Source of the DNA: a virus
Virus record (IMG/VR): IMGVR_UViG_3300020411_001021
Coordinates: 1 to 26,451 of that record
DNA: 26,451 nucleotides
Reading direction: 5' to 3' (one strand)
Positions 3 through 18,000 of this stretch are shown piece after piece (the stretch's first letter is position 1; each line of letters starts with the position of its first letter). The notes under the pieces were generated by a model that saw only the letters and a list, made by a program, of their open reading frames with translations, did no database searches and was not told the DNA's origin. Made by a program: the position numbers and the translations under genes.

Positions 3-3000
3 ACATTTGTTTCAGCAACTGCTAACTGTGTAACAGTTCCTGGTGATTGTGCTAATGTTAAGGATGCAATTGATACTTTAGTTAGTAGTCTTAATGATAT
101 TATTTCACCTAAAGATGAAAACTATCAGATTGCTGCCGATAGACTTTATTTCAATAGAGATTATATTTCTCAAGAAGTTATTGGATTGACTAAGGCTGCA
201 TTCTCATATAGTTTAGGTAGTCAAACTTTCAATTCTTACAGTTATATTGGAGATAATAGCGAAATTGAAGTTAGAAAAGATATTGAGCTTATTATACTTT
301 CTTTGATATCTGATTTACAGACAGGTGGAAATAATAGCTCCATCGATTCTTGTGGTCAATTCTTAGCTGCTAATTTAACTATTATTGGTGGAGTCCAAGA
401 TATTCTAGGTCAGTTTATAAACCAGTTAGAACAACTTAAGTTTATTGGTGCTAAAGCAATACAAAATCTTCTTTACACTCTTGGTAGTAATGTAACTGGT
501 CAGCAATATGCTGCACAATATAATACTTTACCTGCTTACAGGGATACTGAGACTCCAACTAATATTGCTAATGTTGTTACTGATTTTGAGCAACTAATTG
601 ATATTCTTATTAAGGAATTTAATCCATCTGGTAAGAAGGGATTAAACTCTGCGAAGAACATGCTATTTAATGAGAATTATTATTTAAATGAAATTGCATC
701 TGTAGTTAATTCACAATTTGGATCTCAATCATGGCAATATAATGATTTCATTGACACTATTGTTAGTGATCTTGAGCATGATATTATCACTACTGATGTT
801 TCATCTTCTAATACTACTCAGGCAACAAAGATTTCTCTATTGAGAGAAGGTGTTATTAACACAATTAACTTTACAGGTGGTGCTGAATATCAATCAACAC
901 CAACTATTACTATTGACGCTCCTGCTGCTGGTGGAATACAAGCAACTGCAGAAGCAGTACTAAGCACAAGTGCATTATTAACAAGTATTGGTGTTACTAA
1001 TAGTGGTGCTAATTATGAATACATACCAACCTATAGTTTCTCTGGAGCACCTTTCCTTGGCACTCATGGTGGTAATATGTTTATTAATGGAAGTGGACAA
1101 GTTGTTTCAGCAAATTATGATGGTCAAATTACAGAAATGAAGGTTGCCAATGCTTCACAATTTGCTGTTGGTATTGGATGTGCTTTAGTTAATAGTGGCA
1201 CTGGAAGTGGAAGTGCTGGTGGATTTAATCTTGGTCAAGATCATGTAAGATTTGGTGCTGGCACAGGATCTGTTGGTAACAGATATATTAGTATATTACA
1301 ACCATTTGATTGCACTGATGTAGATAAAGTTAGAGTCTATGTTATTGCTGGAAATAATGCAAATGGTGGTGATACATGTGAAACTGGTGAAGATCTTGCT
1401 TTATACTATTCAACTAATGGTGTAAGTTGGACTTATGTTAATAGAATTGTATATGGTGGTACTGGAGGTACTAACGGTATTGATGGGCAAAACCAAAACC
1501 ATGCAGCATTTGCTGCTGGTGGTTTTGTAGATATTCCTCTTGCTGATGGTATTAAGCAAAGTCAGGTTTATTTCAGAATATGGCAGATTGGTCATTCTAC
1601 AGATTCTAATTATGACCATTATGGTATCTGGAGAATGGGTCTGATTAATGAAACCCAACCTGGATTTGATCTAGTTGGTAATACAATTACAGTAAGTTAT
1701 CATGATGCTGATGCACAAGTAGCATCTACTACAGATGCAGAATTGCAATTTAATGCGTCAGTAAAAGTTGAAAGTGTTAATATTACCAATAGAGGTACTG
1801 GTTATTCACCATCAAGTCCTCCAAGTGCTACATTTAGTGGTGGTAATCCAACAACACCTGCTACAGTTACTAATATTACTGTTATATTAGATAGCCGAAG
1901 ATTTACTGCTGGTGAGACAATTATTTCTAGTGCTGGCGGTCAAGCAACTGTATTAGAAGATATTGGTAATGCTCTTTATATTGGACCTACTACAGGAATT
2001 GGTTTTGCTGCTGGTCAGACATTATTCCAAGGTGCAATTACTGCAGTAATACCTGCCAATGGTGTTGGTAATCCATTTGATTGGTATACAAATGTTGGTA
2101 ATGCTCAGACTTTCCAAACAGCAAGAACAATTCAATCTTTAGTTGAAGGTGAAACATCATCTATTAACTTGATACCAAACCCTGAAACTGCAGTTTTGAA
2201 TTCTTGGTATTTCACATACGGCACACCATATAATATTGCTGGCACTGCACCTGATGGATCAGAAACTGCTATTGCCTTTGATCCTTCTACTGATAACAAT
2301 TATCATTATGTTACTAGGTATTATACATTAACTGCATATGAAACTTTTGACTCGGATGCTACTAAGTTTGATACTGAAGCATTAACATGGGATGCTGGTC
2401 CTATTGATGATGATTCTATACAGCAGTATACGATTTCTATGTTTGTGAAATCTGCTGGTACTGATAGAGTTAGAATGTATCTTCAGTTGATACCATATGG
2501 TAGCTACTCTCTAATTCAAGTTAATTTAGCAACAGGACAAGTTGAAGGACAATTCTTATCAAATTCTAATGCAAATGAGTTAACATTAGATGACGCTGGT
2601 GCTATTCCTTATGGAAATGGATGGTATAGAATTTATATTACTGGAAGTTTTGGTTATGGATTTACTGGAATAAACAAATCCGTATTCTGTATTAGTGATG
2701 GTGGATTGATGGCTTATCCAGGTCAGGCAGGTACTGGTGATATGATTCTACTTTGGGGATCTAAAATTAATAAAGGTGGATTAGATGCATATACTGCAGT
2801 TGCTGGTGAGGTATTCTACTCTAATATAGAATATAATATCAAGAAGTATTCTTTAGAATTACTTGAACAGTATAGTGAGTTGGCAATTGCTGGCACTTTA
2901 CAATCACCTGCACCATCTTCCAACTTTATTAGATATTTTGATAGTTCAATAGGATCTGATTACAATGTAGATTCTATACAAAGAATTATTAGAGAAAATC

Positions 3001-5057
3001 TTAAGATGATTCAAAGTCAGTTACTTGATACTGATCATTACTTGACAGTTGATGTAAATACTGGAATTAAACTTCCTACTAAAACATTTGGATCTAGAAC
3101 AATTCCAATACCTTTGGGTGGTGGTATTGAAGGTGCTGATTTCTTATATGGTGCAATTAGTAATAGTAGTGCAGAAGTTAAAACTGTTACTACTAATGAA
3201 GGTCTAGTTGTACAAGATTATAAGAGATTTAGAGTTTATACTACTATTACTGATGGTCCATTCCAGATGAATGAGACTATTAAGAAACAGGGTGATCCTA
3301 CTTGCCGTGGTGTTGTTTATGGATTCCATGAAGATGAAAACTATAAGTATGTTGATATTAGAGTTACTGGTGGTACATTTGCTCTACTTGATATTATAGT
3401 TGGTGATCAAAATAACACAACATTCCAAATTGGTAATATAGAAAGTCGTATCCAAGTTATTGATGTTAAAGGTAATTTTGAAGCAAATTCTGTATTCAGA
3501 GGATATACTTCAGAATCTACTGCTGCAACAGAAACATTCTTAAAGAATGATGCTGCTGTATTGACTAATACTGGAGGAAAACTTGTAGTTGATACTGAAA
3601 CTCTAAATGGTGCATTTGAAAGAACATCTGTAGTTTATGCAGAGAATTCTAGATTATATGTTGAAGTGCAGAAATTTGCTGGACTTGATATAGATGTTGG
3701 TGACAGAGTTGTTGCTGATGGTTATCTCAGATTAGGTACCGCAACAATTAATAATGAGGATGGATGGGTTGTTGGTGATTATGTTTGGAAGATTACTAAT
3801 GGTGTCCAAGATATTAACAATTATGGAATTATTAATAAGGTTGAGGGTACTACTATACATGTCGTACCTGTAGCTGGCAATTTTGCAATTAGTGATGTTA
3901 TAGCTGCATATAATTCAGCAAATATTCGTATTGCATATGCATCCGTAAGTACTAGAATTGCATACACTGGTGCTGCAGCTGCAGTTGTTCAATCTATTGA
4001 AGATGTTGGACTTAATAAGAGACTTTATCTAAGTGATGTTCTTGGAACATGGGCAGATACAGATTCATTAAAATCTGTTGATGGATATAAGTCTGCAATT
4101 ATAGTTAAACAGGATCTAAAAGCAAGGATAAACAGATCCTTTAGAGGATTTGATGGATCACAAACTATATTTGATCTTACTATAAACAATGGTACTCAAT
4201 ACTTCCCTGATACTGAAGGGCATATGCTTATCTTTATCAATGGTATTTTACAACCTCCAGGTGCAACAAATGCTTATACAGCATTCTCTGATAAGATACA
4301 ATTCACTGAGCCACCATCATTAGGATCATCATTCACAGGATTCTACGTTGGTAAGTTAAGACAGTTAGATGATATCTCTTTCGAGTTTGATTCTTTACGT
4401 CAGTCATTCAACCTCAAGCGTAATGATGTATTCTACTCACTAACGCTAACAGAAGGTGTCCAATCTTCTACAATACGTCCAGAAAATAATATCATCGTTT
4501 CGCTTAACGGTGTTGTACAAGAACCTGGCGTTGGTTTTGAATTGGTTGGATCTAGAATTATCTTTACAGAAATTCCTCGTGTGGGATCAACCTTCGTAGC
4601 ATTCTCCTTCGTTGGATCTGAAGCAGACGTTGACGCTGCAGAAGTTGTACCACCAATCGAGCCTACTGACTTCATCAGAATTGGTGGAGAAATCAGTGAT
4701 CGTGAAGTTGCTGTTATTGAATCTTCTAACTCCTTGGTAACATTCGATTATCTTGGTGCTGTATTTGGAAAAGATGCACGTGCTTCAACTTCTATAACAA
4801 AAGGATCTATTCGTGATGTTAGTGTCACCTCACCTGGATCTGGTTATACATCCAGACCTGTTGTTAGGGTTGACTCTATCAGTGGATTTGACGCAAATAT
4901 TAAAGCACTAGTTGGTGTTGGTGGTATTGTTGTCAACAACGGTGGTAGTGGATATCAAAATCCAGAAATTGCTGTTGAAACATCGGTACCAGATGATTGG
5001 ACTGCACCAGATCTAAGTCAGTATGGTGAAGAAGTCATAGATCCAGAAATCGTTTAA
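3..5057 (+). CDS. Giant modular virion structural protein, 5'-truncated (T4 gp7 slot)
   Basis: The frame is open from base 3 with no stop, so the TTG at 186 is not the start; at least 1684 residues are visible and the true start lies upstream. In order, I see: a helical Cys-containing part with two copies of a 'NRDYI..EV' unit (about 120-370 and 645-800); GxGY repeats (864-1060); a beta-sandwich-like stretch (about 1200-1660); another GxGY repeat (about 1762-1857); a glycan-binding-like jelly roll (about 2155-2835); several 'GE.I' modules (about 3080-4130); a tandem pair of 'INGILQ..G' units (4142-4618); and GxGY repeats at the C-terminus (4803-4980). No enzyme motif is visible. Its place upstream of gp8 corresponds to T4 gp7, but I see no sequence resemblance to gp7. 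A baseplate or tail-fibre component is inferred from context and module content. Arg codons switch from mostly AGA to mostly CGT after about 4350. Confidence 0.75.
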   Translation, partial: TFVSATANCVTVPGDCANVKDAIDTLVSSLNDIISPKDENYQIAADRLYFNRDYISQEVIGLTKAAFSYSLGSQTFNSYSYIGDNSEIEVRKDIELIILSLISDLQTGGNNSSIDSCGQFLAANLTIIGGVQDILGQFINQLEQLKFIGAKAIQNLLYTLGSNVTGQQYAAQYNTLPAYRDTETPTNIANVVTDFEQLIDILIKEFNPSGKKGLNSAKNMLFNENYYLNEIASVVNSQFGSQSWQYNDFIDTIVSDLEHDIITTDVSSSNTTQATKISLLREGVINTINFTGGAEYQSTPTITIDAPAAGGIQATAEAVLSTSALLTSIGVTNSGANYEYIPTYSFSGAPFLGTHGGNMFINGSGQVVSANYDGQITEMKVANASQFAVGIGCALVNSGTGSGSAGGFNLGQDHVRFGAGTGSVGNRYISILQPFDCTDVDKVRVYVIAGNNANGGDTCETGEDLALYYSTNGVSWTYVNRIVYGGTGGTNGIDGQNQNHAAFAAGGFVDIPLADGIKQSQVYFRIWQIGHSTDSNYDHYGIWRMGLINETQPGFDLVGNTITVSYHDADAQVASTTDAELQFNASVKVESVNITNRGTGYSPSSPPSATFSGGNPTTPATVTNITVILDSRRFTAGETIISSAGGQATVLEDIGNALYIGPTTGIGFAAGQTLFQGAITAVIPANGVGNPFDWYTNVGNAQTFQTARTIQSLVEGETSSINLIPNPETAVLNSWYFTYGTPYNIAGTAPDGSETAIAFDPSTDNNYHYVTRYYTLTAYETFDSDATKFDTEALTWDAGPIDDDSIQQYTISMFVKSAGTDRVRMYLQLIPYGSYSLIQVNLATGQVEGQFLSNSNANELTLDDAGAIPYGNGWYRIYITGSFGYGFTGINKSVFCISDGGLMAYPGQAGTGDMILLWGSKINKGGLDAYTAVAGEVFYSNIEYNIKKYSLELLEQYSELAIAGTLQSPAPSSNFIRYFDSSIGSDYNVDSIQRIIRENLKMIQSQLLDTDHYLTVDVNTGIKLPTKTFGSRTIPIPLGGGIEGADFLYGAISNSSAEVKTVTTNEGLVVQDYKRFRVYTTITDGPFQMNETIKKQGDPTCRGVVYGFHEDENYKYVDIRVTGGTFALLDIIVGDQNNTTFQIGNIESRIQVIDVKGNFEANSVFRGYTSESTAATETFLKNDAAVLTNTGGKLVVDTETLNGAFERTSVVYAENSRLYVEVQKFAGLDIDVGDRVVADGYLRLGTATINNEDGWVVGDYVWKITNGVQDINNYGIINKVEGTTIHVVPVAGNFAISDVIAAYNSANIRIAYASVSTRIAYTGAAAAVVQSIEDVGLNKRLYLSDVLGTWADTDSLKSVDGYKSAIIVKQDLKARINRSFRGFDGSQTIFDLTINNGTQYFPDTEGHMLIFINGILQPPGATNAYTAFSDKIQFTEPPSLGSSFTGFYVGKLRQLDDISFEFDSLRQSFNLKRNDVFYSLTLTEGVQSSTIRPENNIIVSLNGVVQEPGVGFELVGSRIIFTEIPRVGSTFVAFSFVGSEADVDAAEVVPPIEPTDFIRIGGEISDREVAVIESSNSLVTFDYLGAVFGKDARASTSITKGSIRDVSVTSPGSGYTSRPVVRVDSISGFDANIKALVGVGGIVVNNGGSGYQNPEIAVETSVPDDWTAPDLSQYGEEVIDPEIV
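645..800 (+). repeat. Second copy of the 'NRDYI..EV' helical unit
   Basis: The translation has a LFNENYYLNEI core followed by Gln/Ser-rich residues, an aromatic Asn-Asp-Phe-Ile segment and a helical Asp-rich tail. It parallels the unit at about 120-370, which has LYFNRDYISQEV followed by the EVRKDIELII helix and a GGN motif. Similar units occur in long arrays in large marine phage structural proteins (recalled from the family). The first unit keeps the 'RKD...SDL..GGN' end; this copy has lost GGN. Confidence 0.55.
864..1060 (+). repeat. GxGY beta repeat array in the gp7-slot protein
   Basis: Two successive units of the pattern 'I..I..T..G..Y...PT.....G' are followed by an Ala/Gly-rich turn. 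They match repeats found in at least three other genes of this window. The first unit has the degenerate core FTGGAEY and the second has VTNSGANY. Confidence 0.6.
2155..2835 (+). other. Glycan-binding-like jelly-roll domain
   Basis: The order of motifs is NLIPNP near the start, ISMFVKSAGTDRVRMYL, VNLATGQV, a GNGWYRIYITGSF strand, then GTGDMILLWGSKI near the end. This matches the carbohydrate-binding-like beta-sandwich of many phage tail proteins, which have 'SVYVKAG', 'dlstG.V', 'GNGWYR' and 'YLWGaQ' in the same order. The family resemblance is recalled, not searched. Binding to host-surface sugar is an inference. Confidence 0.6.
4142..4618 (+). repeat. Tandem pair of 'LNGVLQ.PG' modules
   Basis: Unit 1 (4142-4354) has FDGSQTIFDLT, then LIFINGILQPPG, then DKIQFTEPPSLGSSFTGFYVG. 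Unit 2 (about 4380-4618) has the equivalent FDSLRQSFNL, then IIVSLNGVVQEPG, then SRIIFTEIPRVGSTFVAFSFVG. The two align almost without gaps through the second half. This is a recurrent beta module of large marine phage proteins; its function is unknown to me. Confidence 0.7.
4803..4980 (+). repeat. C-terminal GxGY repeats of the gp7-slot protein
   Basis: Two units, RDVSVTSPGSGYTSRPVV and GIVVNNGGSGYQNPEIAV, are separated by an Ala/Gly-rich strand. They are the same repeat family as in gp8 and in the 1382-residue protein. Confidence 0.7.
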
Positions 5058-5087: not shown

Positions 5088-6314
5088 ATGGCCAAGCAAG
5101 TAATAGGAATAGGTTCTACCGCAGGGGATAATACTGGAGATACCCTCCGTGTTGGCGGTGACAAAATAAATGACAACTTTACAGAATTGTATAGTGCCAT
5201 AGGAAATGGTGTTGCTACTCAGGTTAGTGTGACTAATGCTGGTACAGGGCAAGTGTTGCGTTATGATGGATCATCATTTGTTGCTTCTGATTATAGTGCT
5301 CTTACATCATCCTTAGATGTAAATAACAATTCCATTATTTCATCTAGTAATAATAATATTGTAATTGCACCAAATGGTACTGGTAATCTTGCCTTAACAG
5401 TTGGTGGAATTACATCTACATTTCTTGGTGCAACTGGTGCAATTGATATCCCTGCTCTTTTAAGACATAAAGGAGAATATTCATCTTTAGCAAATGCCCC
5501 TGCTGCTGCAGATTTTACTGGATATTTTTTCACTGTTGATGGTGATGATAATCCATATGTAAATATTAATATTACTACAGGTGGTGTTGGTGATACGAGA
5601 GCAAAACTTCTAACAGAATATGCTAGTATTGATGCTTTGGCAGATGTAGATACAACTACTGCTGCCCCTCAAGCAAACCAAGTTCTTAAATGGAATGCGA
5701 CAGATAGTAAGTGGATACCTGCTCCAGATGATGCTGGTTTATCAAATGTTAATTTATTTGCTACAGTTGCTGGTGATACAGGATCTACAACTGCTGATAG
5801 TTCTTCAGATACATTAACTGTTACTGGGGGTAATGATATTGTTACTAGTGTTGTTGGAGATACATTAACAATTGACTTTAATGGTAGTCCCATTACAACC
5901 TTTGCAGGTTTAACAGATACTAATATTGCTGGACTTGCTCAGGGTAATTCATTATTTTATGATGGTCTTAGTTGGGTAAGAACTTCAAGTCCAATTATTT
6001 GGTGGGATTTAGGATCTGATGGATCTTCTCACTATACTTTTGCTGGACCTGGATTTGCTAGTGCAACTAATGATCCTGATCTCTATCTTTATAGAGGATT
6101 TACTTATGCATTTGATAATAGTGTAAATGGTGGTAATCACCCATTTAGAATACAATCCGCACAAGGTTTACAAGGAGCACCATATACTAGTGGTCAGACT
6201 GGTAGTGGAAGCAATATATTATATTTTACCGTCCCTATGGACGCACCAAACATTCTATATTACCAATGCACTATTCATGCATTGATGAATGGTGTTATTA
6301 ACATTGTCTCATAA
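5088..6314 (+). CDS. Fibre-like structural protein with C-terminal cupredoxin-like domain
   Basis: 408 residues. The N-terminus (about 8-40) has the GSTAGDNTGDTLR and KINDNFTELY motif shared by many marine phage tail and fibre proteins. The middle (about 40-290) is Thr/Asn/Gly-rich and has two fibre-linker motifs, NQVLKWNATDSKWIP and NSLFYDGLSWV. The C-terminus (about 303-408) begins SHYTFAGPGF and has HPFRI and YYQCTIHALMNG. His351, Cys394, His397 and Met400 match the H...C-x2-H-x2-M ligand set of type-1 copper proteins such as amicyanin. There is no signal peptide. A late promoter motif precedes it, and the next gene, which also carries cupredoxin-like domains, starts four bases after its stop. 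No Shine-Dalgarno sequence is visible. I infer a baseplate-attached fibre or decoration protein; whether it binds metal is unknown. Confidence 0.75.
   Translation: MAKQVIGIGSTAGDNTGDTLRVGGDKINDNFTELYSAIGNGVATQVSVTNAGTGQVLRYDGSSFVASDYSALTSSLDVNNNSIISSSNNNIVIAPNGTGNLALTVGGITSTFLGATGAIDIPALLRHKGEYSSLANAPAAADFTGYFFTVDGDDNPYVNINITTGGVGDTRAKLLTEYASIDALADVDTTTAAPQANQVLKWNATDSKWIPAPDDAGLSNVNLFATVAGDTGSTTADSSSDTLTVTGGNDIVTSVVGDTLTIDFNGSPITTFAGLTDTNIAGLAQGNSLFYDGLSWVRTSSPIIWWDLGSDGSSHYTFAGPGFASATNDPDLYLYRGFTYAFDNSVNGGNHPFRIQSAQGLQGAPYTSGQTGSGSNILYFTVPMDAPNILYYQCTIHALMNGVINIVS
5994..6311 (+). other. Cupredoxin-like domain with complete type-1 copper ligand pattern
   Basis: The ligand candidates are His351 (codon 6138), Cys394 (6267), His397 (6276) and Met400 (6285). 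The surrounding HPFRI, VPMDAPNILYYQC and MNGVINI segments match the strand pattern of plastocyanin and amicyanin-like proteins, whose last three ligands sit on the C-terminal loop. The 43-residue spacing from the first His to Cys is typical for the fold. Confidence 0.7.
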
Positions 6315-6318
6315 TTAA

Positions 6319-9300
6319 ATGGCAAGAACAGTACCTGGATCTGGAGCAGTAATTGAGCCTCTATTCAATAAAGTCTTTGGCATAAAAGCAGTCAAAGTAA
6401 TTGAAGGGGGTAAGGAATATGAAAGTGCAGATCCACCTAGACTTACAATTACTGGTTGTGGTACTCCTACAGAAGAAGCGTTATTATATCCAATTATTGA
6501 TGATGAATCTGGTAAGATTATTCATGTACGGGTTTTAGAACCTGGATTGGGTTATGATCCATTGCGTGTTTCTATAACCCCTTTACAAGATACACCTAAT
6601 GTTGTAACTTCTTTTGATATTAATCGAATATGGCAATCTAATCCAAATTCTAGTACTACTGGTTCTTTTGCTACAGATACAGACAGGTTAACAATACAAA
6701 CAGATGGTGATCCAAAACCTTCTAATATTACAACTGAAAACCTAAGAGTTCCTGGTGGTGGATCTACTTTAACAGATGATACTTTTAATCAACAATTCAT
6801 TTATAGGGGTGGTAAAGAAGTCCCAAATCCTGCATTAAGAGAATTTCAAAGAAATAAATCAGTAGGTGTAATGGCTAATGGTGTTCTATTACATACACCA
6901 GAATGGGGAGCATTGGGTGGAGCACCAACCAATTTTGATATTGATACAGTAAAACATGGTTATCTCAAATCATCTGATGAATTTGATGGTGTTATAGATA
7001 CTCAACAATATTATTATCAGTCTAGTAAATTAATTAATCAACTTGCACAGGATAATGGTGCATTTGAAAATGGATTTATAAGACCATTTACTTGGAAAGT
7101 AAAAACAGAGACTGATAATATAATGCTGAATGTAGTCAGCACAGAAGAAAATAATGGTGGTACACCAATAGAAGTTGGAAGAACAGTAAGTGTTATTAAT
7201 GGTGATGGAGTTGCAGAAATTGCAAAGGTTGTTAGAGATGCTGGTGGAGTTTGCACAAGAGTATATTTAAGATTGGTTGGTGGCACATTTAGTAGTAATG
7301 ATAGAATTATTGGATCTAATGGATTCTATTTTACAATTTCTGGAAATCCATTAGCTTTCCCAACTGGTATTTTTTATATTGAGTTTGGTCCAGATGCTGC
7401 TGAATTTGGTAACTTTACTCCTGGAGAATATTATTTTGCACCAGAAGATATTAAAGTTCAAAGAAATTATTTGATTATTTGGGATCAGAGTGATGCTTCT
7501 AATCAAGCACCAATGTCTCATCCTATGAGATTTAGTACAACTGCTGATGGTACTCATAATGCTGGTGCTGTATATTACAATAGCACTGGAGCATCAGGAG
7601 CACCTGCTGCAGATTATGAGAATGAATATCAGGCATTGTTCATAATGAACGCTGATGAAACATCAAGAATTTATTATTATTGTGCTTATCATACTCACAT
7701 GTCTGGTTATACTGGTAATGAAGGGTATATAACATTTGATTCAGAGATTGATAATGATCCTCTTCCAAACGATTATTACATAACTGATTTTTATGATGAT
7801 GGTGGAACACCAGATTACAGTAGACATGCTAATGGACATTCTAAAATTTTAGGAATGTCATTTGATGGATATCCAATATATGGACCTTATGGATATACTA
7901 ATAACACTACTATAGGAAGAATGACATCTTCATTTAGATTGAAGACTGGTGTTGAAGTTGATGGTAATAGACCTCCACAAACAACGACTGGTAGTGTTAC
8001 ACATACAATAACTGTTTCTAATGGAAAGTTTTTAATTGATGGACAATTATTAGAAGTTTTAAATCTTGATAGAGGAAAGACATATACATTCAATTTAGAT
8101 GATTCATCAAATGATGGTTACATAGGATTGTTCAGTACTACTGAAGATGGTTGGCATTCTACAGGACAATCTACAGATATTGGTGACACCAGTTATCTTT
8201 TTTCTAGTGGAATAAAATATTTTATTAATGGATTAGAAGTACAGTATCAATCATATATTAGTGGATTTACTACTGCTACTACAAGATCTATTCAATATGA
8301 ATCGAAAGTAGATGCACCAACAGTCATATATGCATTCTCATATAGTGGCACAGAGGTTGGATATCGTTTAGTTAATAATGGATATGTAATGGGTGATTTC
8401 ACACAAGATTACATATATGAAGAAGGTCTTGGATTACTTGATGAACAAAACGGTATTTTTGCTTCAACTCCAGAATATCCTAATGGCACATATTGCTATT
8501 TCATGACTGAAGATAGTAGTGGTAATCCTGTATATCCATATATCGTAGGTCCAAAACTTTATGGAGCACCAACATTTGAGGGAGATACATTACCTACTGC
8601 ATCAACAGAATTTCCTTTTGGTGCTGAAGGTAAAGTTAATATTAATGATGGTGCAATTGATTTCATTAAAATGGTTAAGACTGGAGATGGATACTTTGGT
8701 CCTACTCAAGCAACAATACTTGGTGGAGAAGGTACTGGAGCAACAGTTACACCAACTGTTCAGACTGTTACTGGTTTAACATTATTAACTGATGGAAGAA
8801 ATTTCTTAACTCCACCATCTCTTATCTTTGAAGGTGGCGGTGGTCAAGGTGCAACTGGTGCTGCATCTATAGATGTTACTGGAAAAATAACTAATATAAG
8901 TGTAGTTGATCCAGGAGAATTTTACGATGAAGCTCCTTATATTTTAATTACTGGTGGAGGAGGATTAGGAGCAAAAGCTGTTGCAAGAATTTCTCAAGGT
9001 TCTGTTATTGGTGTTGATATTGTTGATCCTGGTAGAGGATATACAACTGAACCTAATGTAATCTTCCAAAAACTTGTTGATTTAAAGAGAAAGGCAAGAG
9101 CAAGACAGTCTCAAGCATCAGAATCATTCTTCTTAACTGGATTGTTGAAAGCAGTTACTGCTAATGATGATACATTATATGTAAAATCTACTAATGCTTT
9201 CCCTGGATCTGGATCTATTATTGTTGATCAGGAAACTATTAGTTATGCATCAAAATCAGAGCAAAAATTTACAGGTTTAACTAGAGGAGTAAACTTTAGA

Positions 9301-10467
9301 TATGATCAAAGGGTTGTTTTAGATACAAGTCAGAATGATTCAAATCAAGTATCTACATACACATATAATGTTGGTGATAGAGTTATAAGAAGTATTGAAA
9401 ACTCTAATAATAAAATTGCTAAAGTTTATGATTGGAATCCATATAATAGAGAATTATTGGTAACTTTTGAAGTTGATGAATTGGCATTTATTGATGCTGG
9501 TATACCTTCTACAGAAGATACGATTGTGCAATTTGATGCTGGCACTCCTGGAAGTGCAAGTTCATCATTCCAACCACATGTAATAGTAAATTCTGTTGGT
9601 GATGAAATTGTTGCTTTAACAGTACCAATTTCAACATTATCAGATAAGAAATTTGAAGATGATGATGAACAAGATGGTTTGGGAGATGGTATACCAGATC
9701 TTGTAAATACTGGAACTGCGTATGTCAATCAAATCAATCTTGATGGTGGTATTCATAGTTCTCTTTATGGTGTAGAAGAAACACAAGGTGGACAAAATAC
9801 TACTTTATTCCAGGTAGGAGAAAGTCTTAAAGATGGATCTACTCCACTTAAGTTTGCATCTGTTATTGAAGCAGGTGCTCTCAATGAAGGTAGACCTCAT
9901 AATGCTATAGTTGAAATTTTCGTTGATCCTCTTTACGGAAATGGATTAAACTTTAGTGTTAATGAAGTTGTTACTGGACAATATTCCCAAATCCAAGCAA
10001 CAGTAGTTTCTTGGGATAATGCTAGAAGTGTATTAACTGTAAAGGATATTGTCCCATATGATACTGGTGATGTTAATGTGGGTACTAATGGTAAGTTATA
10101 TTCATTCTCAGAAAATAGTACGGTAACTGATTTTATTGTACTAGATCCTGGAGCTGATTACACTCAGATTCCTACTATTGCAGTTGAGGATATTGGTGAT
10201 GTGCAAGCAACAGGAACAGTTAATATGACTACTGCTGGAGACCAAATTGCTTCTGTAACTATAACTAATGGTGGATATGGAATTGTTCCGTATGTAGATG
10301 GCACTTATAACCTACACCCAACCATAACTGTAACCAATGGTGGTGGAGATACCACTGGATCTGGAGCAATATTGCAAGCAGTTACTAGCGGTGAAAACAT
10401 CGTTGGTAATGGTGGAGCATCTTATAAAATCAAGTCTATTAACTATCAGACACAAATCAGATCCTAA
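6319..10467 (+). CDS. YHYH-domain virion structural protein with cupredoxin-like insertions
   Basis: 1382 residues. GxGY repeats lie at about 20-110. A YHYH-family domain follows: MANGVLL (about 185), a position equivalent to the YHYH signature that reads YYYQ (231-234), HSKILGMSFDGYPIYGPYGY (507-526), and LDEQNGIFASTPEYPNGTY through YPYIVGP (about 693-750). Between these blocks lie a 'GE.I'-type module (about 280-340), a cupredoxin-like domain with His401, Cys455, His458 and Met461, and a degenerate cupredoxin-like copy (about 560-690). Next come four GxGY repeats (778-920), a module with PGSGSIIVDQETISY and FTGLTRG (about 935-1005), a 'V..GE'-type module and two more GxGY repeats (about 1270-1360). 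The protein ends NYQTQIRS. It starts four bases after the preceding stop, so the two genes are probably co-transcribed. It lies just upstream of gp8, so a baseplate role is inferred. No enzymatic activity is predicted. Confidence 0.8.
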   Translation: MARTVPGSGAVIEPLFNKVFGIKAVKVIEGGKEYESADPPRLTITGCGTPTEEALLYPIIDDESGKIIHVRVLEPGLGYDPLRVSITPLQDTPNVVTSFDINRIWQSNPNSSTTGSFATDTDRLTIQTDGDPKPSNITTENLRVPGGGSTLTDDTFNQQFIYRGGKEVPNPALREFQRNKSVGVMANGVLLHTPEWGALGGAPTNFDIDTVKHGYLKSSDEFDGVIDTQQYYYQSSKLINQLAQDNGAFENGFIRPFTWKVKTETDNIMLNVVSTEENNGGTPIEVGRTVSVINGDGVAEIAKVVRDAGGVCTRVYLRLVGGTFSSNDRIIGSNGFYFTISGNPLAFPTGIFYIEFGPDAAEFGNFTPGEYYFAPEDIKVQRNYLIIWDQSDASNQAPMSHPMRFSTTADGTHNAGAVYYNSTGASGAPAADYENEYQALFIMNADETSRIYYYCAYHTHMSGYTGNEGYITFDSEIDNDPLPNDYYITDFYDDGGTPDYSRHANGHSKILGMSFDGYPIYGPYGYTNNTTIGRMTSSFRLKTGVEVDGNRPPQTTTGSVTHTITVSNGKFLIDGQLLEVLNLDRGKTYTFNLDDSSNDGYIGLFSTTEDGWHSTGQSTDIGDTSYLFSSGIKYFINGLEVQYQSYISGFTTATTRSIQYESKVDAPTVIYAFSYSGTEVGYRLVNNGYVMGDFTQDYIYEEGLGLLDEQNGIFASTPEYPNGTYCYFMTEDSSGNPVYPYIVGPKLYGAPTFEGDTLPTASTEFPFGAEGKVNINDGAIDFIKMVKTGDGYFGPTQATILGGEGTGATVTPTVQTVTGLTLLTDGRNFLTPPSLIFEGGGGQGATGAASIDVTGKITNISVVDPGEFYDEAPYILITGGGGLGAKAVARISQGSVIGVDIVDPGRGYTTEPNVIFQKLVDLKRKARARQSQASESFFLTGLLKAVTANDDTLYVKSTNAFPGSGSIIVDQETISYASKSEQKFTGLTRGVNFRYDQRVVLDTSQNDSNQVSTYTYNVGDRVIRSIENSNNKIAKVYDWNPYNRELLVTFEVDELAFIDAGIPSTEDTIVQFDAGTPGSASSSFQPHVIVNSVGDEIVALTVPISTLSDKKFEDDDEQDGLGDGIPDLVNTGTAYVNQINLDGGIHSSLYGVEETQGGQNTTLFQVGESLKDGSTPLKFASVIEAGALNEGRPHNAIVEIFVDPLYGNGLNFSVNEVVTGQYSQIQATVVSWDNARSVLTVKDIVPYDTGDVNVGTNGKLYSFSENSTVTDFIVLDPGADYTQIPTIAVEDIGDVQATGTVNMTTAGDQIASVTITNGGYGIVPYVDGTYNLHPTITVTNGGGDTTGSGAILQAVTSGENIVGNGGASYKIKSINYQTQIRS
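7360..7730 (+). other. Cupredoxin-like insertion with intact ligands
   Basis: A strand-rich segment contains LIIWDQSDASN, SHPMRFSTTADGTH and YYYCAYHTHMSGYTG. His401 (codon 7519), Cys455 (7681), His458 (7690) and Met461 (7699) give H-x53-C-x2-H-x2-M. The C-terminal loop resembles the amicyanin copper loop. Confidence 0.7.
7991..8380 (+). other. Degenerate cupredoxin-like insertion
   Basis: SNGKFLIDGQ, the NLDRGKTYTFNLDDSSN strand and LFSTTEDGWHSTG parallel the intact copy (WDQSDASN, RFSTTADGTH). The first His position reads Tyr601. The final loop reads YAFSYSGTEVG in place of YYYCAYHTHMSG, so the Cys, His and Met positions are all lost. It is probably a structural relic of the same fold. Confidence 0.5.
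8650..9075 (+). repeat. Four GxGY repeats
   Basis: The successive cores are MVKTGDGYFGP, LLTDGRNFLTPPS, VVDPGEFYDEAPY and IVDPGRGYTTEP. Each is followed by a GG.G.GA turn and an Ala-rich strand, with a period near 35-38 residues. This is the clearest array of this module in the window. Confidence 0.8.
10129..10400 (+). repeat. C-terminal GxGY repeats of the YHYH protein
   Basis: The units are IVLDPGADYTQIPTIAV and VTITNGGYGIVPY..., followed by TNGGGDTTGSGAILQAV. They come just after a 'V..GQ...A.VVSWD' module, so the two module types are adjacent here as they are at the fibre C-terminus. Confidence 0.65.
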
Positions 10468-10517: not shown

Positions 10518-12050
10518 ATGGCAGCATTACTAACTGATCAATTTAGAATTTTTTCTGCACAGAAATTTATTAAGGCACTTGAAGGTCCAGTTGCGACCCA
10601 GAGTGATAGTGATGCTGGAGCTTCTAGAGATCGTCTATACATTTTTATCGGCAGACCACAATCGTGGGATGATGAAAACAACCCACCCCAAGCAGTAGAT
10701 TCTTTCCAAGAATTTTCATCAGCATATGATGATATGATTTCTTTGAAAAGGGTCTTGGCTTCTGACGTTGTGCAGGTTGTAAGACGAATTGACTGGGTTT
10801 CTCCAGAGCAGACTACAGGTGGTCTAGGTTTTACCTATGACATGTATCGTCATGATTACTCACCTAGTAAGACTGCATCTTCTGGTGCTACTAAACTGTA
10901 TGATTCCGACTTTTATGTTGTGAACTCACAGTATCAAGTATATAAATGTATCTACAATGGCACTTCTCCCTCGGATCCAAATGGTAAACCGTCAACGGTT
11001 GAGCCGACTGGTACTTCGACTTCTATTATTACTACTGGTGATGGTTATCGTTGGAAGTATCTTTATACCATTCCCGTGGCTTCTGTTTTGAAGTTTTTCT
11101 CTAATGATTACATGCCTGTTTTCATTAATGATGCTGTAAGAACAAATGCTGTTAGTGGAGAAATTGATACCGTTGTAATCAATGCTGCTGGTGCTGGTTA
11201 CAATAATGGTACATATGATAATGTACCTATTAACGGTGATGGCACAGGTGCTAGAGTTTCTATTGTTATAGATGGTGGTAAAGTCATCTCTGCAACAGTA
11301 ACCTCTGGAGGTACTGGATATACATTTGGTAAAATCAGTGTTGATACTATTACAGGAATCGGCACAGGAACAAACGCTGAAGTTGATGTCATAATTCCAC
11401 CTCCAGGTGGTCATGGTTACGATCCAGTCATTGAGATGGGTGGATATAGAGCTATGATTAATGCTAAACTCTCATATGATGAGGGTGCAGGTGACTTCCC
11501 AATTGATAACGATTACCGAAGAATTGGTTTAATTACAAACCCTCTTAAGTTTGGTACATCTGAATTAATTTCTGATCTAACAGTTTCAGGAACTAAAGCG
11601 GTTATTTTCCCACCTACTTTCCAAGGTAATTACATCCCTGATGAAATTATCACACAGTCTAGAATTGTTGGTGGTGTTAATGTTACTGCACGTGGAAGGG
11701 TTATTTCATGGAACGCAACAACAAAACTTCTCAAGTATTATCAAAATAGTGTTGATGGTATTTTCCCAGAAGTTACTGGTACTTTGAATGAGTTTGATGG
11801 ATCTAATCCCATCAATGGTGCTACATCAGGTGCTGCAGGGCAACCAGATGTTAACTTCCCAACTGTACCTAATACTTCTTCTAGGACAATCAATAACACT
11901 GAGTATGATCTTGGAATGAAATTTAATAATGGTTATGCGAAGTCTGAAATCAGATACAGCACTGGACAAGTGGTCTACATAGATAACAGACGCTCAATCA
12001 GTCGTGCAAACGACCAAGTAGAAGACATTAAAATCGTAATCGAGTTCTAA
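10518..12050 (+). CDS. gp8: Baseplate wedge protein gp8
   Basis: 510 residues, against 334 for T4 gp8 (length recalled). The T4-like core is clear at both ends and in the middle: SAQKFI near the start, LYIFIGRPQSWDDENNPP, VVRRIDW, GDGYRWKYLYTIP, FSNDYMPVF (about 194-202), RIGLITNPL (335-343), and VVYIDNRRSISRANDQVEDI at the end, matching the T4 'MIYMENR...DQTEEI' tail. gp8 is a homodimer in each baseplate wedge, contacting gp6, gp7 and gp10 in T4. The extra length falls in two places: GxGY repeats between FSNDY and ITNPL, and a 'V.ARGRVISW' module between ITNPL and the C-terminal core. The start is the ATG at 10518, preceded by AGGA with very short spacing. The next gene begins four bases after the stop. 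Confidence 0.95.
   Translation: MAALLTDQFRIFSAQKFIKALEGPVATQSDSDAGASRDRLYIFIGRPQSWDDENNPPQAVDSFQEFSSAYDDMISLKRVLASDVVQVVRRIDWVSPEQTTGGLGFTYDMYRHDYSPSKTASSGATKLYDSDFYVVNSQYQVYKCIYNGTSPSDPNGKPSTVEPTGTSTSIITTGDGYRWKYLYTIPVASVLKFFSNDYMPVFINDAVRTNAVSGEIDTVVINAAGAGYNNGTYDNVPINGDGTGARVSIVIDGGKVISATVTSGGTGYTFGKISVDTITGIGTGTNAEVDVIIPPPGGHGYDPVIEMGGYRAMINAKLSYDEGAGDFPIDNDYRRIGLITNPLKFGTSELISDLTVSGTKAVIFPPTFQGNYIPDEIITQSRIVGGVNVTARGRVISWNATTKLLKYYQNSVDGIFPEVTGTLNEFDGSNPINGATSGAAGQPDVNFPTVPNTSSRTINNTEYDLGMKFNNGYAKSEIRYSTGQVVYIDNRRSISRANDQVEDIKIVIEF
11157..11420 (+). repeat. GxGY repeats inserted in gp8
   Basis: VVINAAGAGYNNG, then GDGTGARVSIVIDGG, then ISATVTSGGTGYTFGK, then GTGTNAEVDVIIPP, and a final HGYDP. 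They fall between gp8 core blocks FSNDYMPVF and RIGLITNPL. T4 gp8 has a much shorter linker there, from memory of its sequence. Confidence 0.75.
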
Positions 12051-12054
12051 ACGA

Positions 12055-15000
12055 ATGGCACAAAATACCAATTTAAACGTCACCCCTTACTACGACGATT
12101 TCGATAAGGATAAGAATTTTTATCGAGTGCTGTTTCGACCTGGCTTCCCTATACAGGCTCGTGAATTATCAACAATGCAATCGATCTTGCAGAATCAGGT
12201 CGAGAATGTTGGTACGCACTTCTTTAAAGATGGTGCAATGGTCATACCTGGACAGGTTGGTTATGACTTAAACGTTAGTGCTATCTTACTTCAAGAGTCA
12301 TTCCTTGGTAGTGATGTTGAAACATATAGAGCACAATTAGATGGTGCTATAATTGAAGGACTGACAACAGGTATTAAAGCAAAGGTATTATATAGTATTT
12401 CAGCAGAGACTTCAGAGAAAGGTTATATTACATTATATGTTAAGTATATTGATTCTGGAGATACAACTTCAGAGTCTGCATTAAAGACTTTCCAATTAAA
12501 TGAGCAGTTAATATCAGATAAAGAAATAACATTTGGATCTACTCTTATTGAGGTTGGCACACCATTTGCTCAGTTGTTACCAGTAAATGCAACTGCTACA
12601 GGTTCTTCAGCATATATTAGTGAAGGTGTCTACTTTGTTAGAGGACACTTTGTTAATGTTCCTTCTAACTATCTAATTCTTGAACAATATAGTAATAATC
12701 CATCATTCAGGGTTGGTCTTGAAGTATTAGAATCTATTGTTACACCTGAAGATGATGAGTCACTAAATGATAATGCTGCTGGCACTTCAAACTATTCTGC
12801 ACCTGGTGCTCATAGATTTAAAGTATCTACTAATTTTGTTAAGAGACTTATTACAGATGAAGCAGATAAAGACTTCATTGAATTGTTAAGAATTAATAAT
12901 AGTGTTGTAGAAAATTTTGTTGAGAGGACAGCATATAGTGAATTAGAAAAATCTATGGCTCGTCGTACTTATGAAGAGTCTGGAGATTATGTTATTGATA
13001 CTTTTGATGTTAAAGCAAGGGAGCATTTAAATGACGGATTCAACAATGGTGTATACGATTCTGGAACAACTAGTCAGGATGGAAATGTCGCTGATGATGA
13101 AATGGTTGCTCTCGAAGTCTCCCCAGGAAAGGCTTACGTTAGAGGATATAGAACAGAGTTTATAACACCACAATATGTTGATGTAGAGAAACCAAGAGAT
13201 TTTGATTCTATTCAAAATGGTATCATTAATTTCAATCTTGGTAACTTCATGAAAATTTATGATGTTACTGGATGGCCTGAAATTAGTGGTGATGGTGTTA
13301 CTGATGCATATCAGATAGTTGAATTTTATGATGACTGGGCAGCTAATGCAACTGCATCTATTAAGTCAGGTGCTACCCTAATTGGTAGAGGAAGATTAAT
13401 TCAATTGCAGAAAGCAGTTACGTCAACTGCTAGTACCAATCCATTTGGGGGATCTGGTCCTATTGATGGTGTCTATGATATGTGGTTCTTTGATCCACAA
13501 ATGTGGACTGCATTAAACATTACTAATCCAGGAACATTTACTGTTGGAATGAGAGTAGTAGGTAAGACATCTGGATCTTATGGTTATGTTGCTAATATTG
13601 GTAATGGTACACATTACATATACTTAGAGCAAGTAACTGGTGGATTTACTAATGGTGAAATATTAGAAGTTGATGGTAGAGTATTTGGTACTTTAGAAGC
13701 AGCGTGGACATATAATATTACTGATGCTAGATCTGTATTTGGAAAAATTGCTGGCACTAACAATATTAGATTTGGTGCTAACCTTATTCTAAATGATGCT
13801 AAGGCTATTGAAGCATCTACTATAAATGTTGATGATACTACAGATGATGAAATTACTGGTTTCAGAACTAGATTTGATAAAGATCTACGTCCTGGTGATG
13901 TAGTTACTCCAGTTATTTCAAACTCTGAAGGAAATAATACACATAGAATTTTACGAGTTGATCCAACTGCTATTGGTGTAACAGCACAGAATAAGAAAAA
14001 TTCTGTTGCTGCAGCAGATGTTATTTTTAATTATGATGAGGAGACAGCTAAGATTGATGGTACATTAAAAGTTGGTACTGTTGCAGATGGAGATTATGGT
14101 GAATTAGTTAGGATGCGTCCTTTCATATTCCAAAAAGATTATCAGAATGGAGAACTATCTTTTGACTTACCAGAAGATGTGATGAAGGATATAAGTGATG
14201 AATCATTCTTTGTATACAGGAACTTTGCATCTAAAACTGTAACTACTGGATCTATTACATTTACTCTTCCAGAGACTGAAGCGTTTGCTGCAATGTCAGC
14301 TGAAAATTATATATTAACTGTTATTGCTGATGGTGGTGATACAACATGGACAAACGGAATGAACATTGATGTTGATTCACAGGCAGATGCTGGTAATTTA
14401 TCAATATCATTTGGTGCTCAAAATCAATCACTTTCTATAACTGGTTTAGGTCAAGTTGCTACAGTTACTTTAACAGCATTAGTATCTAAGAATACTGTTA
14501 CTAAGAAGTTGAAAACTGCTTCTAAGATGCAAGCGTTAAAGGTATATAAGACTAATGATAATGTAGATGTTCAACAAACAGGACTTGTTTATAGTAGTCT
14601 ATATGGTACTAGAGTTCAAGATGGTGATATATCTATGGGCATTAATGATGTTTATAAGATACATGCAATCTATGAATCATATGATGAAAATGATGCATCA
14701 CCTCCATACTTAACATTAACAGAATCAGTATTCTTTGGTACAGGAAAATTAATTGTAGGTAAAACATCTGGTGCTAGAGGAAGAGTTATTTCATTCCAAA
14801 ACACCACTCAAAAACTTTATTATGTTGCGATTAATGAGATTCCTTTCCTTAACGGAGAAATTATTGAGGGATATGATGCTGCTAATGATCCTATTACTGG
14901 AATTATAGATGATGATGAAGATTCAATTTTCCTTGGAAGTAAAGTAATTACAGATGAATTTGAGTTAGAAGCTGGAATGCGTACTAACTTCTATGATGTT

Positions 15001-18000
15001 TCTAGATTAACTAGACCAGGAGGAACAGTACCACCTAACAGAAGACTATTAGTTATATTTGATTACTTCATCCATGAAGCATCTGGTGATTATTTCTCTG
15101 CTGAATCTTATAGTGGTATTACATTTAAAGAGATTCCTAATTATAAATTAGATGGATCTATTAAGTATATTAGAGATCAGATTGATTTCCGACCTGCTGT
15201 TAAAGAGTTAAGAAATGGTACTGGTACTATAAGTGCTCCATATTATGTCAATTGTACTACATTTGACTACAACTCTAGAGTCTTTACTACTGCTGGTGGT
15301 AGCGGTGCTTCCACAGTCTTTGATATTATGCAAGTCAACTCTTCATTCAGAGCAGACTATAGTTGGTATCTACCGAGAGTTGATAAGTTATATCTATCCC
15401 ATGATGGAGATCTAAGAGTTGCTAAAGGTGTATCTAGTAAGTTCTTAATTCCACCACAACCAGTACAAAACTCAATGTTACTTGCAAACATTGAATATAA
15501 ACCATATGTTTTTGATCCTGAAAGAGATATTATTATTAAACCTGAAGTAATTCGTCGTTATACGATGAAAGATATTGGTGATATAGAAACACGTTTAACT
15601 AACGTTGAATATTATACATCATTATCAATGCTTGAATCTCAGGCAGATAATACTAAAACATATGATGAGAATGGATTTGATAGATTAAAGAATGGTTATG
15701 TCGTTGATGACTTTACCGATCATACAGTTGGTGATGTTTTAAATGTGGATTATAAGTGCTCTCTAGACTTTAGAGAAGGTCAGTTGAGACCACAACATTA
15801 TACTACAAACGTAGGATTACAGTATAATGATTCTGATTCTACAAATGTAGTTAGGACAGAAGGTAACGTTTTAATGCTTCCTTATACAGAAGAAGCGTTA
15901 GTGCAACAACCATATGCTTCTAGAACAGAGAATGTAAACCCATTTAACGTTTTCACTTTTATTGGACGTATTGATCTTCAACCTGCATCTGATGATTGGG
16001 TTGATATTGAAAGAATGCCAGCTAGAGTTGAGAATATTGAAGGAGACTTCTCTGCAGTGTCAAGAGACATGCAGGTTGATCAAAATGGTTTTGCTCCTAT
16101 TCAGTGGGGATCTTGGCAGACTAACTGGACTGGTGAAACATTAACTTCTACATCTCAGCGACAATCCACATCTGGTACTTATGGTATTGGTCGTCAGTTA
16201 GGTCGTGCAGGTCATGGTCAACGTCGTCAAGGTTTATTCTATCTACATGAACGTCGCACATTCCGTGTTGTTAATAATCAGGCTCGTCAAGGTATTAGAT
16301 CTAAAGTTGTGCCCAAAATTGAAAGAAAATCACTTGGTGATACAATCCTTTCAACAAGTACAATTCCTTGGATTCGTTCTAGAAACGTTGGATTTAATGT
16401 ATTCAGATTGAAACCACGTACTAGATTCTATGGATTCTTCGATGGAGTTGCAGTAACACCTTATATTACTCCAAAAGTAATTGAGATAATTAAAAACTCA
16501 ACAACAGATGCAAGAACAAATGAAACACCATTTGTTGTTGGTGAAACTGTAGTAGGTCAAAATTCAAAATGTCAACTTAAGGTAGTTGCTCCTAATGATG
16601 GATATACAACTAACCCATATGGAAAAGGAACAGAAACATTACCTGAAACATATGCATCACAAACAGAATATTTAAATCATGATATAACTGCAATTTCAGA
16701 AACTGTATCACCAGATTATTTTGGTAATATGCAAGTTGGTGAAGTATTAGTTGGTCAAACTTCTGGTGCTAGATGTGTTGTTAGAGAACGTCGTCTATTG
16801 ACAGATAACGTTGGTAATATTCAAGGTACTTTGTTTATACCTTCTCCTAAGAATGATGCTAATCCTCGTTGGGCAACAGGTACAAGAAGCTTCAGATTTA
16901 CTACTTCTGAGACTAACTCAACTATGACTGGTGCTGTAGATTCATCTGCACAAACCAATTATACTGCTTCAGGTACTACTCAAACAGTACAAGAGAATAT
17001 TCTTGCAATTAAGAATGCAGAGATTGTCCAAGACACTGTTAGTGAAGAAAGAGTTGTTGAGACAACTAGAACTGAAGAGCGTCAGATTGGTTGGTATGAC
17101 CCTCTTGCTCAATCATTTATTATTGAGAAAGAAGGTGGCACATTCTTAACAAGTGTTGAAATATATTTCCAAACAAAGGATACAAATATTCCTATCTCTA
17201 TGCAGATAAGGACTATGGTAAATGGATATCCAAGTAAGAGTATCCTACCTTTCTCTGATGTAACTATAAATCCAGAACAAGTAGAGATTTCTGAAAGTGC
17301 TGCTGTGCCAACTAAGTTTACCTTTAGAGCACCAGTTTATATTAAGTCATCTGTTGAATATTGTTTTGTATTACTATCCGACTCTAATGAATATAAGGTT
17401 TGGATATCTAGAATGGGTGATATAGACGTTACAGGAACAAGGACTATATCTGAGCAGCCATATGCTGGTGTCTTATTCAAGTCACAAAACGCATCTACTT
17501 GGACTGCTGATCAGTATGAAGATTTGAAGTTTAGTATCTATAGAGCAGAGTTTACTCAAACTACAGGTACTGCAGTTTTAAATAATACTGCTCAAGGAAG
17601 AGGAAATGGTGGAATTCATAGATTGGTTAATAACCCAATTCAAACTTTGAAACCAAAGACTTCCTTAACTCTACCTACAGGTAGTAACTATTCATTCTCT
17701 TTAGGTGCTAGATTAAAACAGGTTACTACTGGTGCATTGGCAACAGTATTGGACCATAACACTACACCTGATCCAGATACATTAACTGTTAATGAAGTTA
17801 GTGGAAACTGGTTAGTTGGTAGTGCTACAACTTACATGATTACATCATCTCAAACTAATGCTACAATTAGCACATCTGGTGTTTCAGGAACATTTGAAGC
17901 TGGTGACGTAGTTACTGGTGGTACTTCTGGTGCAGTAGGTGAGGTTGTTTCTTGGGATGCTGCTGGTAATTCATTGGTATTGAATTATGTGACTAAGGCA

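Follow-up and report, generated by a model that had tools for sequence, protein, structure and literature searches.

Positions 6865-8570 of the window (the whole stretch of DNA analyzed here, a 26,451-base virus record by the coordinates of which all features are placed; Table 1) raise the question whether a viral YHYH domain has been split by two cupredoxin-like insertions and whether a metal site has moved from the host fold into an insert, as suggested in a first-pass annotation of the sequence.

Host ORF and the split YHYH domain

The stretch in question encodes residues 183-751 of a single uninterrupted ORF (6319-10467), which matches the baseplate wedge subunit family PHROG 708 over its full length (1-1382 of 1383). 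Proteins from isolates, among them syn9 gp103 with the annotation baseplate wedge subunit, are in many cases about 60% identical to the window protein from end to end. From the PHROG 708 match and the kinship with syn9 gp103 it can therefore be deduced that a cyanomyovirus baseplate protein is encoded. Within this family, often annotated as gp7-like, the window protein is an ordinary clade member and differs in nothing essential, and some cyanophages annotate its relatives as gp7. As for a T4-type baseplate wedge, the family profile goes together with gp8- and gp10-like neighbors, and the gene order is the same in syn9. Besides, the first of two structure models (see below) gave a weak fold match to a baseplate-cup chain of a Klebsiella phage. 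Since at least 80% of the window protein is covered by one place in 279 phage records and independent metagenome contigs also match it, at up to 95% identity over the full length, the protein is widespread and an assembly oddity can be excluded.

The YHYH profile PF14240 is matched at 72.9 bits (cut-off 25, E = 4.3e-20) in split stretches, residues 503-564 (7825-8010) corresponding to profile positions 88-149 and residues 681-733 to positions 128-184. The weak N-terminal block came into register when phage and cellular YHYH proteins free of interruptions were aligned with the window protein; in this alignment, the sequence YYYQ falls on the namesake motif. Hence, the first-pass description of three YHYH blocks in the right order but pushed apart, with a namesake motif reading YYYQ, is borne out by the profile match and the alignment. 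Cellular PF14240 members and the stand-alone phage YHYH proteins S-ShM2 gp7 and ACG-2014d Syn7803US111_72 possess the same blocks in the same order and share with the window protein the motifs NG, DGYPIYGP, QDYxY, LDxxNG, and TPEYPxGTY. In contrast to these uninterrupted proteins, however, two loops of the window protein are longer by about 220 and 130 aa. The distance from YHYH to DG[YF]P amounts to 281 residues, whereas 55 cellular proteins have 23-26 and four stand-alone phage proteins 44-45; that from DGYP to xDYxY amounts to 176 residues, compared to 46, 47 or 61 in cells (one motif being missed) and 47-50 in phages. Moreover, no long insertion interrupts any of the PF14240 matches in 198 Bacteroidota and 200 Pseudomonadota genomes; the cellular YHYH domains sampled are unbroken. 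The alternative named at the outset, that cellular YHYH proteins naturally have such lengths between their blocks, is thus ruled out for this sample of 55 proteins and about 400 genomes by the spacings and the unsplit genome matches, with the three blocks of the cellular proteins aligning in register at far shorter distances.

Table 1. Features of the window protein and its neighbors, in window coordinates.
Feature	Residues	Position	Strand	Basis
gp9/10-like wedge-fiber connector, neighbor		5088..6314	+	profile matches
Whole ORF, 1382 aa, cyanophage baseplate wedge protein, syn9 gp103 orthologue		6319..10467	+	PHROG 708
Scaffold, N-terminal part	1-96	6319..6606	+	joined straight to about residue 778 in the YHYH-less relative L081
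YHYH fold segment 1, holding the block seen in the first-pass annotation	97-252	6607..7074	+	alignment, model
Namesake motif position, YYYQ exactly on YHYH	231-234	7009..7020	+	alignment
Insert 1, about 220 aa net	253-484	7075..7770	+	12 residues instead in nine non-redundant orthologues
Small beta domain opening insert 1, about 95 aa	255-345	7081..7353	+	model
Cupredoxin-like domain of insert 1, ligand set intact	351-474	7369..7740	+	fold search, alignment, model
Predicted Cu ligand His401	401	7519..7521	+	43/43 orthologues with insert 1
Predicted Cu ligands Cys455, His458, Met461 (C-x2-H-x2-M)	455-461	7681..7701	+	43/43 orthologues with insert 1
YHYH fold segment 2, RHANGHSKILGMSFDGYPIYGPYGY	485-552	7771..7974	+	PF14240 match, alignment
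Insert 2, cupredoxin-like, copper ligands lost	553-~685	7975..8373	+	alignment, model
YHYH fold segment 3, QDYIY...LDEQNG...TPEYPNGTYCYF...PYIVG	686-752	8374..8574	+	PF14240 match, alignment
gp8-like baseplate wedge protein, context		10518..12050	+	profile matches

Fold and modularity of the inserts

Modeled with AlphaFold from an alignment of orthologues only (pLDDT 67.7, pTM 0.56), the inserts were predicted confidently and the host blocks poorly, many residues of the latter being below pLDDT 50; packing of the host blocks cannot be read from this model because the alignment was too shallow. With uninterrupted phage and cellular YHYH homologues added, pLDDT 92.8 and pTM 0.88 were reached and the host segments became confident, in a model not fully independent insofar as its input alignment already paired the host blocks with uninterrupted YHYH domains. 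Judged by this confidence, the model supports folding of the three YHYH segments into one domain. When PDB folds were searched with both inserts together, the top matches of both models were laccases and multicopper oxidases, with small laccases also among the matches and rusticyanin among those of the orthologue-only model; a YHYH fold was absent among the PDB matches listed. A viral structure library gave matches to other cyanophage YHYH proteins along the length of the model, for example from S-RIM14 (664 columns). In line with these fold matches, the claim that each gap holds a cupredoxin-like segment stands, but the first gap had been described incompletely, as insert 1 comprises, besides its cupredoxin, a small beta domain that had been missed and that is found in 216 phage records at one place in each.

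By its sequence and predicted structure, insert 1 is a cupredoxin fold with a His/Cys/His/Met (HCHM) ligand set, for which a type-1 copper site is predicted. Its His...Cys-x2-His-x2-Met spacing is that of amicyanin. The full set reported for this insert from the sequence alone corresponds to H401, C455, H458, and M461; it was recovered in all 43 non-redundant orthologues with insert 1, and a copper ligand pattern preserved to this extent is beyond chance. As in amicyanin, rusticyanin, plastocyanin and small laccases, a beta sandwich with the same ligand order is predicted, whereas, unlike the blue-copper proteins and small laccases, the window cupredoxins are embedded within a different domain of a virion protein. 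Furthermore, while the copper site is predicted, the inserts have no detectable sequence match to cupredoxins of PDB or Pfam, and fold comparison alone detects the relationship: phmmer with the whole protein and searches with insert profiles against PDB sequences gave no cupredoxin, and in Pfam searches with the isolated inserts no cupredoxin family appeared at E up to 1, the curated cut-off being reached by neither insert.

Natural variants illustrate the modularity of the protein. Among the fused proteins, reduced to 54 rows, nine have the approximately 232 residues of insert 1 replaced by 12. The scaffold of L081 joins about residue 86 straight to about residue 778, without a YHYH region, and from that of L169 the region is missing as a whole, too; each of the two phages encodes YHYH nearby in a gene of its own, without interruption. 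Together with the confident model and the baseplate neighborhood, the insert-1-free orthologues and YHYH-less scaffolds substantiate the earlier proposal of a new composite domain on the baseplate. Other members bear extra insertions of about 155 aa at residue 492, 210 aa at 526 and 110 aa at 119-149. The insert at 492 shares a 74-residue stretch, 41% identical, with a large structural protein encoded next to the window protein. In L343, L348-L350, L353, and L355-L358, the YHYH domain lies inside a structural protein of about 6000 aa and is likewise split between blocks 1 and 2, with GGSGY-type repeats at this first site, whereas the insert of the window protein is cupredoxin-bearing. A loop-inserted, intact-looking cupredoxin with C-x2-H-x2-M is also present in the YHYH protein WJZ48554.1 of Actinomycetia phage DSL-LC01 (L084:3777-5147), in this case, however, at a third site between TQDYSY and DLDTNNG and in a stand-alone protein of 456 aa, not a baseplate scaffold. 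As several tail proteins carry inserts at various sites, YHYH loops have been used repeatedly for insertions.

Ligand exchange and decay of the predicted YHYH metal site

Scored by alignment columns over non-redundant orthologues, HCHM is present in insert 1 of all 43 proteins bearing it, and an intact set in insert 2 is found in none of these 43. Without insert 1, eight of nine orthologues have HCHM in insert 2, and in L201, also free of insert 1, insert 2 retains Cys and His, with Met missing. In the window protein, the ligand columns of insert 2 are Y601, S674, G677, and V680, and across the insert-1 clade many different residues replace the ligands, with W612-H613 conserved in the degenerate domain. 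By hhalign, the intact and the degenerate form of insert 2 represent one and the same domain (100%, E = 2.8e-40), and insert 1 shows a more distant likeness to intact insert 2 (95%, E = 2.7e-8). In a tree of the scaffold minus the YHYH region, the insert-1 proteins come out as a single group (support 100/99), the insert-1-free proteins fall into two groups below it and, under a midpoint root, the YHYH-free scaffolds are outermost. That precisely this ligand set should arise a second time is unlikely; its loss from insert 2 is therefore the derived state, so that insert 1 was gained on the same branch. An exchange on a single branch counts as one historical event, not as a recurrent correlation; it is the later conservation of the exchanged state, as far as the aligned ligand columns tell, that recurs across all 43 proteins.

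For YHYH domains, a metal site of three His and one Asp has been predicted (PMC7824862), with which four alignment columns were equated by our own choice; at these columns, DHHH is intact in 25/25 cellular and 9/12 other phage YHYH domains aligned, compared to 0/38 insert-1 proteins and 0/8 insert-1-free fused proteins. The window protein reads D, gap, Y and Q, and decay is graded among the insert-1-free fused proteins, with L201 reading D-H-T-H. Hence, D...H...YHYH is mostly kept in cellular and free-standing phage proteins but lost in the window protein, the domain of which is homologous to YHYH proteins and, by the DHHH criterion, outside the metal-binding members. As none of the eight insert-1-free fused proteins scored has the complete site, its decay set in before insert 1 was acquired, which weakens the idea that the site was given up once insert 1 had provided a replacement. 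Of the suggestion that a metal site moved from the host fold into an insert, the move itself is retained, in that the ligand set was exchanged (43/43 and 8/9), but not its starting point: the hand-over that can be traced in the alignment columns runs between the two inserts. With the site itself being predicted, this is a clear and countable metal-site relocation within one protein family.

Possible role of the retained site

We propose that a YHYH domain was built into a T4-like cyanophage baseplate-wedge scaffold, where it would have lost its predicted Asp/His metal site and become a chassis for loop-inserted domains. One loop would first have gained a cupredoxin (insert 2) and another, later, the beta domain plus cupredoxin module (insert 1), and the branch gaining the latter would have lost the ligands of insert 2, resulting in one intact type-1-copper-like site per protein. 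This site would bind metal, most likely copper in view of the amicyanin-like spacing, and at the baseplate rim it may staple the structure or mediate adhesion rather than act as an enzyme. The interruption, the fold class, the modularity and the ligand exchange are established at the level of sequence comparison and structure modeling, and the proposal in its entirety, with the staple or adhesion role included, is in our judgment probable, with considerable room for doubt. Relevance of the retained site is favored by its being kept through a change of the carrier domain and by the adjacent gp9/10-like connector, the C-terminus of which (about 109 aa, 5985-6311) is a similar cupredoxin-like domain with His/Cys/His/Met. 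In the connector, His plus C-x2-H-x2-M is present in 42/42 relatives listed, including four outside the stricter pattern, and the set is kept in both clades whatever the state of the YHYH protein. A catalytic role is disfavored, as no enzyme family was recognized and the YHYH site is gone.

Conceivably, the cupredoxins are metal-free beta sandwiches for packing or receptor binding, with Cys, His and Met conserved for fold stability, and degenerate insert 2, which keeps its fold and W612-H613 without the ligands in 43/43 proteins, would fit such a role. All four ligands of insert 1 are invariant over the same 43 proteins, however, whereas those of insert 2 are variously replaced, and the intact state follows whichever domain carries the set, which makes this explanation unlikely. 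Slightly less credit is given to a redox-active cupredoxin or copper-dependent trigger, for which virion-bound copper would be reduced or stripped at or within the host envelope and thereby aid baseplate rearrangement or attachment. Exactly one intact HCHM set survives the change of position, which argues for selection on the site beyond the fold alone, and the connector also preserves its set in both clades; on the other hand, a partner or redox chain would have to be postulated, the copper site is a prediction, and structural metal sites in phage tails are sufficient precedent. Such structural sites occur in the short and long tail fibers of T4. HxH sites are discussed in PMC11705849. Just as doubtful as the trigger is its broader form, in which functional copper centers would be present in the gp10-like connector as well as the YHYH-cupredoxin wedge of T4-like cyanophage baseplates; involvement of copper occupancy or redox state in attachment or triggering would then account for preservation of the ligand set through the change of carrier domain.

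By far the least probable explanation is that the YHYH fold is still a metal-dependent hydrolase, as proposed for the YHYH domains of jumbo phages (PMC7824862), with His503 and His507 substituting for the lost histidines. This RHxxGHSK pair is indeed present in 36/38 proteins with insert 1 and in 8/8 without, but DHHH is absent from all 38 insert-1 proteins scored. Moreover, the pair also occurs in the other phage YHYH domains (12/12), including those with an intact DHHH, and is therefore not a replacement.

YHYH domains in phages were already known (PMC7824862, PMC7029224), albeit as enigmatic proteins guessed to be tail-associated metal hydrolases; the lineage described here is widespread and has lost the predicted active site, with the fold apparently serving as an insertion chassis. 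The composite YHYH-cupredoxin architecture was not found described in the literature searched, in which no paper joined cupredoxin, phage and baseplate, most subscription journals being outside the scope of the search. The one paper there that names both cupredoxin and cyanophage reportedly concerns Borgs. From the ligand exchange, cyanophage virions are predicted to contain roughly one cupredoxin-type metal site for every copy of the wedge protein and another for every gp10-like connector; should metal indeed be bound, such phages would carry copper in the surface ocean.

Several further proteins in the window and in related phages show noteworthy domains. A subtilase-family protein of Synechococcus phage ACG-2014e (L172:1258-3318) has a C-terminal cupredoxin-like domain with C-x2-H-x2-M. 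In the stand-alone YHYH proteins S-ShM2 gp7 (L168:4776-6497) and ACG-2014d Syn7803US111_72, an alpha/beta-hydrolase-like region follows, with matches of S-ShM2 gp7 to a PHA depolymerase model and to Abhydrolase_2 below the cut-off. Within the window, the frame at 3-5057 contains, at about residues 408-481, a module recurring as an extra YHYH-protein insertion in L048-type phages and overlapping a sub-cut-off Reelin_subrepeat-B match. Downstream, 12055-19392 encodes a structural protein of 2445 aa with DUF4815, and 19947-25421 a protein of 1824 aa that starts with an Mtd_N domain and is probably a tail fiber.
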